DNA from: Nanobdellota archaeon
GTDB lineage: Archaea; Nanobdellota; Nanobdellia; Pacearchaeales; GW2011-AR1
Assembly: GCA_030647125.1 (NCBI GenBank)
Contig: JAUSKC010000008.1
Coordinates: 1-48,351, forward strand
Direction of reading: 5' to 3'
DNA: 48,351 nt
Shown here one piece after another: positions 4,618 to 48,072 of the stretch (its first letter is position 1; each line of letters opens with the position of its first letter). The translations under genes and the position numbers were made by a program. The notes below the pieces were generated by a model. That model was not told the DNA's origin, made no database searches, and worked only from the letters and a program-made list of their open reading frames with translations.

Positions 4618-5049
4618 ATGCCTCATCAATGCGTTCATTGTTCTAAGATTATACCTATGGGAAGCTCAGAGCTACTTGAAGGTTGCAAAGGTTGTGGGGG
4701 CCGGTTCTTTTTTTACATAAAAGACGAGCAAATGCAAAGAATTCTTGCTAAAAGAGAAAATGAAGAAATTGAAGATATAATAGGAATACCTAATGAAGAA
4801 AAAAAACAGGTTGAGAAAGACATACGTGAAATCGCTGGAATTGAAGACGAAAATGCGCCGGTAATTCTTGATTTAGAAAGCGTTAAAGTAATAGGACAAG
4901 GAAAATTCGAAATTGACCTTGTAAACTTATTTAGAAAAGACAGACCTTTAATTTATAAAATGGAAGAAGGAAAATACATTATTGATTTATCTACTACATT
5001 AAAAAATTTGGACAAAAATAATGACAGAACTAAAGTTCAGCACAAATAA
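4618..5049 (+). CDS. Zn-ribbon protein, DUF2072 / ArvC-OapC-like
   Basis: N-terminal CxxC...CxxC ribbon 'CVHCSKIIPMGSSELLEGCKGCGGRFFFY'; third member of the ArvABC neighbourhood. Confidence 0.8.
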   Translation: MPHQCVHCSKIIPMGSSELLEGCKGCGGRFFFYIKDEQMQRILAKRENEEIEDIIGIPNEEKKQVEKDIREIAGIEDENAPVILDLESVKVIGQGKFEIDLVNLFRKDRPLIYKMEEGKYIIDLSTTLKNLDKNNDRTKVQHK

Positions 5050-5073
5050 AAATTCAGAAGAATTTTCATAATG
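5021..5073 (+). repeat. Recurrent linker element copy 1 (sORF plus two hairpins)
   Basis: ATGACAGAAC-TAAA-GTTCAGCACAAATAAAAATTC-AGAA-GAATTTTCATAATG; sORF MTELKFSTNKNSEEFS*. Confidence 0.75.
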
Positions 5074-23549: not shown

Positions 23550-24272
23550 ATGGAAATGCCAACAGAAATGCAGCACCAAGCAATGGGCTATGACAGAACT
23601 GCGACAATGTTCTCGCCAGAAGGGACGATATTGCAAGTTGAGTATGCGGAAAAAACAGTTCGACTGGGAAGTTCAAGCATTGGAATTGTATGTTCTGACG
23701 GAGTTTTCGTACTTGCTGACAAAAGAGTAAGAGATAAATTAGTTGTAAAAGAGTCGGCCAGTAAGATCTATGAAATTGATTCTAATATTATTGCTTCGGT
23801 TGCCGGAATTTTGGCAGATGCAAGAGTTCTTATTGAAAGAGCGCAAGTTCTGTCGCAGCAGCATAGAGTAACTTATGATACAGAAATAGAACCGGAATTA
23901 ATAATTAAAGACATAGCGAACGCGATGCAGCAATTTACTCAGTATGGTGGAGCAAGACCTTTCGGGGTTTCGTTTATGGTTGCTGGTTTGCACGGAAAAA
24001 ACCCTGAATTATTTTCAAGCGATATTACAGGAAATTATTTTGGATATCACGCACATGCAATAGGCGAGAATGACGAGAAATTAAGGGAAAGATTAAGAGA
24101 AAAATACAGAAAGGATTTGAAAATAAAAGAAGGAGTGAAAATCGCTACGGAAATCTTCAAAGAGGTTTTGGAAGATAGATTTGATTTGAACAGATTTGAA
24201 TTAGTTGTTCTTAGAAGTGGAAATGATAGACCTGAAAGATATGAAGGGGAAAATATTAAGGACGTGAAATGA
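23550..24272 (+). CDS. psmA: Proteasome alpha subunit
   Basis: 'GYDRTATMFSPEGTILQVEYAEKTVRLGSSSIGI'. Confidence 0.95.
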   Translation: MEMPTEMQHQAMGYDRTATMFSPEGTILQVEYAEKTVRLGSSSIGIVCSDGVFVLADKRVRDKLVVKESASKIYEIDSNIIASVAGILADARVLIERAQVLSQQHRVTYDTEIEPELIIKDIANAMQQFTQYGGARPFGVSFMVAGLHGKNPELFSSDITGNYFGYHAHAIGENDEKLRERLREKYRKDLKIKEGVKIATEIFKEVLEDRFDLNRFELVVLRSGNDRPERYEGENIKDVK

Positions 24273-24321
24273 CAGAACAAAGTTCAGCACAAATAAAAAT
24301 TTTAAGAAAATTTTCATAATG
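24269..24321 (+). repeat. Recurrent linker element copy 2 (sORF plus two hairpins)
   Basis: ATGACAGAAC-AAA-GTTCAGCACAAATAAAAATTTT-AAG-AAAATTTTCATAATG; sORF MTEQSSAQIKILRKFS*. Confidence 0.75.
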
Positions 24322-24657
24322 ATAGACCAAGTTGGATTAGAAAGAATGATTCGGGAAGAGGCTGCAGAATCAAAAGAATTTAGCAAAAGAAAAAATGATA
24401 GAAGATTTTTAGTTAGTGATTCTACTGCAAGAAATGCTTTGAGATATTTTAATTTGTTTACTGATGAAGTAAAAAGCAAAACAGGATTTAGCGTTAATAC
24501 ACTTCCTGAAATGAACAGTAGTTATGAAGGCGGAATGATTTTTTATATAGGCAACAAACAAATTGAGGCATTTATTCAAGTATCACCAGTAAACGGAGCT
24601 AATTATTCATTTAGATTCATGGGAAGAGAATATGAGGGAAAACTAAAATTAAATTAA
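24319..24657 (+). CDS. Hypothetical protein inserted in exosome/proteasome operon
   Basis: ORF starting on the TAATG of the linker element. Confidence 0.6.
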   Translation: MIDQVGLERMIREEAAESKEFSKRKNDRRFLVSDSTARNALRYFNLFTDEVKSKTGFSVNTLPEMNSSYEGGMIFYIGNKQIEAFIQVSPVNGANYSFRFMGREYEGKLKLN

Positions 24658-45995: not shown

Positions 45996-47975
45996 ATGAA
46001 AAAGAAAGGTGGTTTTGGCAAGATACTTTTATTCTTTTTAATATTAGGTATAATATTAGTTATAGCACTTTTTGGAACAAAGATATATTTGTTCTTTCAA
46101 ATGATCATAGGAAATGATTTAACTATAAGACTAAGCACGGACAATGAAAATCTATTTATAAATAAAGGGCAAATAGAAAAAGTGGAATTTACGACGTCTG
46201 CAATAATGAATCCTTTTTGTAAATCATACTGCCAATCGAACTTTGTTGATTTGGGCAGTGGACAAGTAATTGAAAATGATAGCTTTGAACTTACTTTAAC
46301 AAGTTCATTAACAAAAAGTTATTCTATTGGTGTTAACAAGTTTGGAAAAGGGCAGGATCTTTATAACTTTCAAATAATATGCCAAAGCAAGAAGAGTTTC
46401 CTGTGCCAAACAACTGAAGATAAAAAGTTTAGAAATATTTTGCTAACAGTTGATTACGATTTAAACGATTCAGATAAAGAATTTGTTAGCAATATGCAAA
46501 ATAATATTTCTTATATAAACCAAAAGATAGACGACAATATTTTATTCATAAATGATACTAATAAGTTTTCAAAAGAGCATAGTAACATAAAAGAATTTAA
46601 TACAGGCAGAAGAATCAACACAGTTTCAAACAATTTATTAAATTTCAACACGACTTTAAATTTATCAAAAGCATTTTTAGATAACAATGAGTATGAGAAA
46701 TTAAATTTAAACGATTTAATAAATAATTTTAATGATATAGATAAAGAGTTTAATGAAATTAATGCTTCTTTTTACAACAATTTAACACGATTTCAAAATA
46801 TAATGTCCAACTTAACTTATATAGAATCCACTCTTAACAATTATACCAAACAAAATGTCTCTTTAAATTCTTCAGACCAAATAAAGTTTATAGAAGAAAA
46901 TTATAATGAACTTGCAACAAGTTTGAATTCAAAAAGCAATTTAAGTATAAGTATTATGCAAAGCAAAGTTAATTCCTTAAATTTAGAACTTGTGAATTTA
47001 GAGAACTTTATTAAAAATGAACCTGGTGAAGGATTTTCAGTTTCTTTAGATCTGATTAAAGTTACTAAACCTGTTTTCCAAACAAGCCAAAATAATCCTA
47101 TAATTTTAAACTTTAATCAAATTCAACCAATATGTTGCCTGAATAATATATGCAAACCATGTTGTAGTGGTTTAACATGCCAATCAAATCAAAGTTTGTA
47201 CCCTATAGTGCTTGTTCACGGACATGATTTTTCAAAAAGCACTACTGCAGAATATGCTCTTGATAGTTTCGGGCAGATACAAGATAAACTTGCAAGTGAT
47301 GGATATGTAAGCGCAGGAGAATTGTTATTGAATACAAATGATCCAAAGACAAACGGAATATTTGGTGAAATGAATTATCCTATAAATATTATAACAAGTT
47401 ATTATTTTGACATATACGAGACTTCTGGCAAAGGAACAATTATTCAAACCAAAACAGATAATTTAGATAGCTATGCCATAAGATTGAGGGATATAGTCAA
47501 TACAGTAAAAGAAAAAACTGGAAAAGATAAAGTGATAATAGTTTCTCATTCAATGGGTGGTTTAGTAACAAGAAGGTATATCCAAGTCTTTGGCTCAAAC
47601 GATGTAGATAAAATAATTCTGATAGGAACTCCAAATAACGGAATAAATGGAACAACACTAAGATATTGTTCTATTATTGGATCTTCCCCAGAATGCAATG
47701 ATATGGATTCAAGCAGCGTGTTCATAAATAAATTAAACAGAGCCAATGAAAGCAGCGTTCCGATATATAATATAATTGGAATTGGTTGCGACACTGATGG
47801 AGAAGATGGAGATGGAATTGTAAAAAGGAGCAGTGCTTATTTAAGTTACACTGAAAATTATTATATAAATGGAACTTGCGATTCCAGTTTCTATTATCTT
47901 CATTCGGATTTGATAAAAGTTGATAAATATCCTGAAGTTTATGACTTAATAAAAGAAATTTTAAAAACAAAATGA
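45996..47975 (+). CDS. Surface-anchored alpha/beta-hydrolase (lipase/PGAP1-like) with long extracytoplasmic coiled-coil
   Basis: N-terminal TM; 'YPIVLVHGHDFSKS' oxyanion region; 'VIIVSHSMGGLVTRRYI' nucleophile elbow; many N-x-S/T sequons. Confidence 0.82.
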   Translation: MKKKGGFGKILLFFLILGIILVIALFGTKIYLFFQMIIGNDLTIRLSTDNENLFINKGQIEKVEFTTSAIMNPFCKSYCQSNFVDLGSGQVIENDSFELTLTSSLTKSYSIGVNKFGKGQDLYNFQIICQSKKSFLCQTTEDKKFRNILLTVDYDLNDSDKEFVSNMQNNISYINQKIDDNILFINDTNKFSKEHSNIKEFNTGRRINTVSNNLLNFNTTLNLSKAFLDNNEYEKLNLNDLINNFNDIDKEFNEINASFYNNLTRFQNIMSNLTYIESTLNNYTKQNVSLNSSDQIKFIEENYNELATSLNSKSNLSISIMQSKVNSLNLELVNLENFIKNEPGEGFSVSLDLIKVTKPVFQTSQNNPIILNFNQIQPICCLNNICKPCCSGLTCQSNQSLYPIVLVHGHDFSKSTTAEYALDSFGQIQDKLASDGYVSAGELLLNTNDPKTNGIFGEMNYPINIITSYYFDIYETSGKGTIIQTKTDNLDSYAIRLRDIVNTVKEKTGKDKVIIVSHSMGGLVTRRYIQVFGSNDVDKIILIGTPNNGINGTTLRYCSIIGSSPECNDMDSSSVFINKLNRANESSVPIYNIIGIGCDTDGEDGDGIVKRSSAYLSYTENYYINGTCDSSFYYLHSDLIKVDKYPEVYDLIKEILKTK

Positions 47976-48072
47976 CAGAAAAAATAAATTTTTTCAGCAC
48001 AAATAAAAATTTGGAGAAAACTGGAGGACGAAAACATTTCAAAAGAAATGTTTTAGAGAAATTTTCATAATG
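47972..48072 (+). repeat. Recurrent linker element copy 3 (extended)
   Basis: ATGACAGAAAAAA-TAAA-TTTTTTCAGCACAAATAAAAATTT...AAACATTTCaaaaGAAATGTTT...AAATTTTCATAATG; sORF MTEKINFFSTNKNLEKTGGRKHFKRNVLEKFS*. Confidence 0.75.

Follow-up and report, generated by a model that had tools for sequence, protein, structure and literature searches.

Translational coupling by termination and reinitiation is described in archaea and bacteria and requires that the stop of one gene and the start of the next overlap or lie a very short gap apart (PMC6728339, PMC10666635). Coupled stop-start spacings are -4 and -1 nt, and experiments in Haloferax volcanii and E. coli found that a gap of about 20 nt almost abolishes reinitiation or coupling (PMC10666635). 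In caliciviruses and influenza B, reinitiation of the TURBS type is aided by structured RNA upstream of an overlapping stop-start, and TURBS pairs with small-subunit rRNA. Termination-reinitiation has also been described in murine norovirus (PMC2793014). Among inserted sequences, the palindromic elements of Rickettsia and MITE-like repeats are about 100-200 bp and occur as in-frame fusions inside proteins or between genes (PMC2229807), and the blocks in Magnusiomyces capitatus mitochondria and in T4 gene 60 are skipped by the ribosome and may contain stops (PMC5009743). The element described here has stop-start overlaps at both ends, as coupled pairs do, being entered through ATGA or TAATG and left through TAATG.

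The copy under study (copy 2) lies between psmA and a short gene in the window, by which we mean the whole 48,351-nt stretch of DNA that was analyzed. Its features are as follows.

23550 to 24272, + strand: upstream gene, proteasome alpha subunit (psmA; Pfam PF00227, E 9e-48)
24269 to 24321, + strand: element copy 2, ATG to TAATG, 53 nt (read directly; covariance-model match 73.9 bits, E 1.3e-14)
24269 to 24319, + strand: copy 2 short open reading frame (sORF), product MTEQSSAQIKILRKFS, then stop
24275 to 24285, + strand: hairpin 1, GAAC-AAA-GTTC (RNA fold; family-wide covariation)
24286 to 24300, + strand: conserved 15-nt core, AGCACAAATAAAAAT
24296 to 24314, + strand: hairpin 2, AAAATTTT-AAG-AAAATTTT (RNA fold; covariation)
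24319 to 24657, + strand: downstream gene, 112 aa (no Pfam match)

The sequence of copy 2 is ATGACAGAAC-AAA-GTTC-AGCACAAATAAAAAT-TTTAAGAAAATTTTCATAATG. The sORF shares its own ATG with the psmA stop (ATGA) and its own TAA with the next ATG (TAATG), and the 112-aa gene is followed by genes for SBDS, Rrp4 and an RNase PH-type exosome subunit. The first-pass annotation had claimed that copies 1 to 3 have the core in common, that copy 2 reads it in a different frame but nevertheless ends on TAATG, and that its hairpin 1 loop is AAA where that of copy 1 is TAAA; all of this held when checked against the sequence. Compared with copy 1, copy 2 is 1 nt shorter in the 5' part and 1 nt longer in the 3' hairpin region, and the totals are equal at 53 nt. 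The other copies in the window are listed below.

5021 to 5073, + strand: copy 1, product MTELKFSTNKNSEEFS, then stop; precedes a tRNA nucleotidyltransferase gene
47972 to 48072, + strand: copy 3, product MTEKINFFSTNKNLEKTGGRKHFKRNVLEKFS, then stop; precedes a Nudix gene and carries a nested 42-nt palindromic insert with the frame intact
48020 to 48061, + strand: insert nested in copy 3, about 42 nt, boundaries uncertain by a few bases (comparison with copy L009)

Copy 1 has the hairpin 1 loop TAAA, and the ORF upstream of it terminates at the TAA of the core, in the third frame. The exact 15-nt core occurs three times in the window, and allowing up to 2 mismatches gave 6 matches compared with 0.88 expected from shuffles, a number reached in 0 of 100 shuffles. 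The genome to which the window belongs (640 kb in 26 contigs; incomplete, at 88.6%) contains the exact 19-mer TTCAGCACAAATAAAAATT nine times and, with near copies, 11 full elements. These span ATGACA to TTTTCATAATG, the final ATG being the start of the next gene, and every one of the 11 stays open from its ATG to its TAA, with two frames of the core in use (STNKN or SAQIK). Hairpin 1 is missing from one of them (L012), and an extra palindrome is present in two (L003, copy 3 of the window, and L008); the frame is intact.

Several related sequences were seen in the same genome. The hairpin module GGAGGACGAAAACAT..ATGTTTTAG of the copy 3 insert was found elsewhere by genome search, in tandem in places. 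Another palindromic repeat, GGAGGACGAAAACA..TGTTTTA, is found as tandem intergenic copies, in one case close to a tRNA gene, and also nested in two element copies (window 48020-48061; own genome C11:44886-44974, C24:45967 and C24:47870-47958; L208, L213, L214), and Rfam gave no match to it. The S3 gene start at the L22-S3 junction (L179, L197) is apparently ATGGAAGAAAAAATAAATTTTTTCATGCATAATAAA and resembles a decayed element fused into the N-terminus. A half element consisting of core and hairpin 2 only (L051, C18:31227-31276) finishes at an STT3 start codon, and a full element (L092, in genome G214) precedes the apparent orthologue of this STT3 gene.

The element is narrowly distributed. A search of 85,462 species with the exact gapped pattern gave 15 copies in 6 Pacearchaeota or Nanoarchaeota MAGs, and the same pattern gave 0 matches in IMG/VR viral contigs, offering no sign of a viral origin there. 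A covariance model detected the element in 17 of the 206 genomes searched in the order, counting the one that holds the window, at up to 31 copies per genome; about 100 further copies lie in the 16 other genomes, and all belong to one family of Pacearchaeota-like archaea. A broader covariance model run on 378 genomes of the class confined it to that same family. The relatives that have record names are metagenome assemblies of uncultivated archaea. The elements in the window had no Rfam match at gathering thresholds, and 10 loci had none at E up to 1; the sole weak Rfam match overlapping an element (L073) was to an unrelated lncRNA model, far under the cut-off. No description of the element was found in the literature searched, itself a partial sample. 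sORFs of this kind are likely to be overlooked by gene finders.

The first-pass annotation had proposed that selection acts on length modulo 3 and on an open frame more than on the peptide, and about 100 copies now support this. Of the two properties to be checked across copies, length modulo 3 is held such that 76 of 83 anchored copies close on TAATG, compared with 28.6 expected when 5' and 3' parts were permuted (maximum 47 in 20,000) and 40.4 when they were permuted within genomes (maximum 56 in 20,000). Internal stops are absent from all 85 closed distinct copies, compared with 18.9 expected to be stop-free after base shuffling, and the other two frames of these copies are open in just 1 and 30. 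The peptides, the third item to be compared, are unrelated between frames. Seventeen of the 24 distinct length combinations are closed and seven are not. Broken sORFs, which had been named as a possible refutation, do exist: 12 of 97 distinct full matches are not closed, several of them weak or doubtful, but with strong ones among them, such as L096 before rpoB and L110 before a MinD/ParA-like gene. The 97 full copies were selected in part by having TAATG at the 3' end. Furthermore, the copies are related and fall into genome-specific subfamilies, so the counts are not independent events and the permutation statistics overstate the evidence. Despite this kinship, selection on the frame is likely, backed as it is by the within-genome permutation and by the nested inserts.

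Two frames had been implied at first, and the family extends to three. In many relatives the core is of a second type, GCACAAATACAAAAT, which lacks the in-frame TAA (AAATAC), and the third frame is used in such copies, an example being L117, with the product MTEQEVQHKYKTGDFA and a stop. Ten closed copies use the third frame with the AAATAC core; with the AAATAA core no closed copy does so, and two broken copies do. Because an AAATAA core would meet TAA in that frame, the third frame is open only where the core has lost it. The three core frames yield STNKN, SAQIK and QHKYK. Orthologous junctions can have the core in different frames and all be closed, as at L10e (L104/L125), RpoL (L111/L116) and a Sec61-beta-like gene (L127/L113). 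Of the 12 copies that carry long nested inserts, every one is closed and open. In genome G211, two elements at separate loci (L130, L163) contain one and the same 45-nt module, both open, and in G212 a 42-nt version of the module lies in two elements read in two different frames (L124, L151), again both open. Frame closure, stop avoidance and the use of three frames are shown by these data. Selection on the core sequence, which had also been claimed, is supported as well, but part of the core identity may reflect common descent, since the unit acts as an insertion with clean empty sites.

The 42-45 nt module (..GCAGACAGGAAGTCAGCCGTTC..) was observed nested in elements at several loci (L130, L163 and L227 in G211; L124, L151 and L229 in G212; L108 in G210; L109 in G215; L217 and L233 in G213). 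Similar sequence was found immediately downstream of a tRNA and also, read in frame, close to the N- or C-terminus of two predicted proteins, where it is like a protein-coding palindromic repeat.

The two hairpins covary. Among 84 distinct aligned copies, both hairpins are paired in 94.9% of cells, 8 of 11 pairs vary on both sides, and the covariation score was 0.379, compared with 0.127 for shuffled and at most 0.058 for slid controls. The structural alignment was fitted to its own model and the absolute values are biased toward structure; when right halves were swapped between copies, stem scores dropped for both hairpins. This covariation indicates that the structure is kept and not the core alone. 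The RNA fold of copy 2 taken alone was no better than that of its shuffles (z 0.18). The core GCACAAATA is the best-kept single-stranded part of the element. In most copies the loop and 3' arm of hairpin 2 contain a Shine-Dalgarno-like GGAG, copy 2 being among the few without it. Shine-Dalgarno-like motifs were counted ahead of the second, downstream ATG in 75 of 83 copies and ahead of the sORF ATG in 36 of 118, and the end of the window's 16S rRNA has the expected anti-Shine-Dalgarno sequence ATCACCTCCT. Pairing of the core with 16S or 23S rRNA in the manner of TURBS was rejected, as no match was common to the core variants (window's own rRNA only); the sole pairing was an 8-nt 16S match to TTCAGCAC, missing in two of the four core variants tested.

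A different sequence of similar design was observed before S19 in genome G122 (L184). It has an unrelated sORF (MKNKMVAGFIKTRWRFL, then stop), a hairpin AAAACC..GGTTTT and GGAGG, and it also closes on TATAATG, so the start-codon sORF design may possibly reach beyond this sequence family.

Matches to the element lie at gene starts in the sense direction and are not scattered, with the caveat that the model itself contains the ATG and TAATG ends. An upstream stop overlaps the sORF ATG or lies within 15 nt of it in 58 of 97 full copies, and in 46 of 97 it is at -4, -1 or +1 nt. The remaining copies are promoter-proximal or isolated, several with TTTATAAA-like boxes some 25 nt upstream of the ATG, a spacing that would fit leaderless transcripts, as inferred from sequence alone. 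Target genes include those for ribosomal proteins (S3, S4e, S3Ae, S5, S9, S13, S14, S19, S27ae, L1, L5, L10, L10e, L13, L22 and L31e), RNA polymerase A', B and L, proteasome alpha, an exosome subunit, seryl-tRNA synthetase, SecD/F-type proteins and STT3. Unrelated genes are also among the targets, and the list has had no formal enrichment test. At S3, S19 and S14, the element is present in several genera. Tandem units, in which the TAATG of the first provides the ATG of the next, were observed at L121 (G215:C3:3677-4006), L154 (G211) and L086 (G175).

Comparison of orthologous junctions revealed precise empty sites. At rpoL, the unit is present in genomes G212 and G211 and absent from G210, G213, G214, G215, G184, G025, G091, G118 and G000 (G210-G215 are the same genomes as G186, G168, G188, G183, G187 and G185, judging by their identical coordinates). 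Sites without the unit have promoter and ATG with nothing in between. Since the flanks of G212 and G210 are common on both sides, the rpoL unit is an addition that duplicates the ATG only, although the rpoL alignment (A5) misplaces the gap by a few bases. The L10e, L2-S19 and L22-S3 junctions likewise have filled and empty sites with the same patchiness, and among related genomes the element is present at L2-S19 in 3 of 17, at L10e in 2 of 12 and at RpoL in 2 of 11. Clean empty sites, with the unit placed after the promoter or upstream stop but before the original ATG, are therefore shown in related genomes, as is the sense placement at start codons; gain and loss were not polarised on a tree. 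The clean empty sites, subfamilies and tandem units favor spread by copying, mobility itself being inferred.

The interpretation that we favor, with moderate confidence, is that of a dispersed, structured, insertion-like unit that is kept translatable and relays ribosomes to the gene. A unit of about 50 nt would sit between the start context of a gene and its original ATG, and the new ATG would take the old start position, either beside the upstream stop in operons or about 25 nt past a TATA box in leaderless transcripts. From there a short open frame would traverse hairpin 1, the core and hairpin 2 and close on a TAATG that contains the original start ATG. A ribosome initiating at the first ATG, leaderless or coupled, would cross and melt the hairpins, terminate at TAA and reinitiate at the overlapping ATG, aided by the Shine-Dalgarno-like GGAG of hairpin 2. 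Because ribosomes would read through the unit and reinitiate at TAATG, length modulo 3 and the absence of stops would be selected in whichever of the three frames is used and the peptide would be free. An element that is out of frame should lower expression of the gene that follows, as a broken frame creates a gap of the kind that at about 20 nt interferes with reinitiation (PMC10666635). Translation of the sORF, dependence of the downstream gene on upstream translation, reinitiation, and a role in setting output rather than mere tolerance are all inferred from sequence alone. Read-through with reinitiation at TAATG is nonetheless the least demanding account of three-frame openness, fixed length modulo 3 and a disposable peptide. 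Evidence against the relay includes the strong unclosed copies L096 and L110 and the lack of a clear Shine-Dalgarno motif in copy 2. The relay explains selection on the frame both for a unit with a beneficial regulatory role and for an insertion that is tolerated, and the choice between these is undecided. Recurrence at ribosomal operons and the built-in Shine-Dalgarno motif speak for a function, though any effect on output is inferred. A bolder reading, which we consider less likely than not, is that the unit is mobile, seeks out start codons and comes with a translational relay of its own, its insertion duplicating only the ATG, keeping the spacing to the promoter or upstream stop, and bringing an open frame, a Shine-Dalgarno motif and a stop-start. 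If so, the element would land on essential genes without silencing them and might set their output.

Two other accounts concern what the unit does for its host, and both are considered unlikely. As a regulatory leader, it would be a cis-regulatory RNA whose core is bound by a protein or small molecule, translation of the sORF serving as a switch arm that tunes ribosomal, RNA polymerase and secretion genes jointly. The conserved structure, with GCACAAATA as the best-kept single-stranded part, and the many targets among ribosomal proteins, RNA polymerase subunits and proteasome or Sec components are consistent with a leader; against it are the unrelated genes also targeted, the patchy presence among related genomes (3/17, 2/12 and 2/11 at L2-S19, L10e and RpoL), the lack of a matching Rfam family, the absence of a complementary rRNA site common to the core variants, and the fact that recent copying could account for core identity. 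As a purely selfish palindromic element, it would spread through an unknown transposase or gene conversion, and survivors would keep the host gene translatable without benefit. Clean empty sites with a duplicated ATG, genome-specific subfamilies, tandem units with a common TAATG, and nested modules that are common to loci and also occur elsewhere all fit a selfish origin. Against this account stand the matches that lie at gene starts in the sense direction rather than scattered (the model includes the ATG and TAATG ends), the loci (S3, S19, S14) occupied in several genera, and the Shine-Dalgarno-like motif that the unit brings; the ribosome path it predicts is the same as in the relay, the difference being benefit only.

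Accounts in which the ribosome skips the unit or its peptide is the product fare worse, and we regard both as very unlikely. Programmed bypassing, in which the ribosome would leave the first ATG and land on the matching second one, skipping a structured gap of about 50 nt, is suggested by matched codons about 50 nt apart, hairpins and a Shine-Dalgarno-like motif before the landing codon, all of which resemble T4 gene 60 (PMC5009743). However, a bypassed gap needs no open frame, and that of gene 60 has stops; bypassing was rejected because the 85 length-closed copies are all free of stops where 18.9 would be expected, indicating that the frame is actively kept. A conserved micropeptide would require a functional sORF product of 16-33 residues, and most copies do start with MTE or MKN and finish with FS or FA before the stop. 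Orthologous loci are in different frames, however, and inserts alter the peptide freely; a coding peptide was rejected because the same nucleotides are read in three frames (STNKN, SAQIK, QHKYK).

Since the same nucleotide core stays open in all three frames, the unit lets selection on frame and selection on peptide be told apart in nature. It suggests a way in which very small archaeal genomes put up with, or make use of, insertions right where ribosomal, RNA polymerase and proteasome genes begin, and it would provide a compact natural cassette for testing archaeal termination-reinitiation.

Set against known systems, the element meets the criterion for coupled pairs, a stop and start that overlap or lie within a few nt. 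Coupled pairs are ordinary genes, whereas here what lies between genes, or between promoter and gene, is a structured unit that occurs repeatedly and whose peptide is dispensable. Like the Rickettsia palindromic elements and MITE-like repeats (PMC2229807), it is small, dispersed and hairpin-forming, has open frames and is tolerated by translation; it differs in being about 50 nt long, in lying at start codons with its own start and an overlapping stop-start, and in having three frames open. Filled and empty orthologous sites, as expected of a MITE, are present (RpoL, L10e, L2-S19, L22-S3), and terminal inverted repeats over about 100-200 bp are not, there being two local hairpins and no end-to-end stem. 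The bypassed blocks of M. capitatus mitochondria and T4 gene 60 (PMC5009743) are also short blocks made harmless in translation, but the frame of the element is open, implying that it is read. Unlike TURBS, the element is a repeated genomic unit and has no rRNA match common to its core variants in the window's own rRNA. The element, a start-codon unit with the same core open in three frames, is undescribed in the literature searched.
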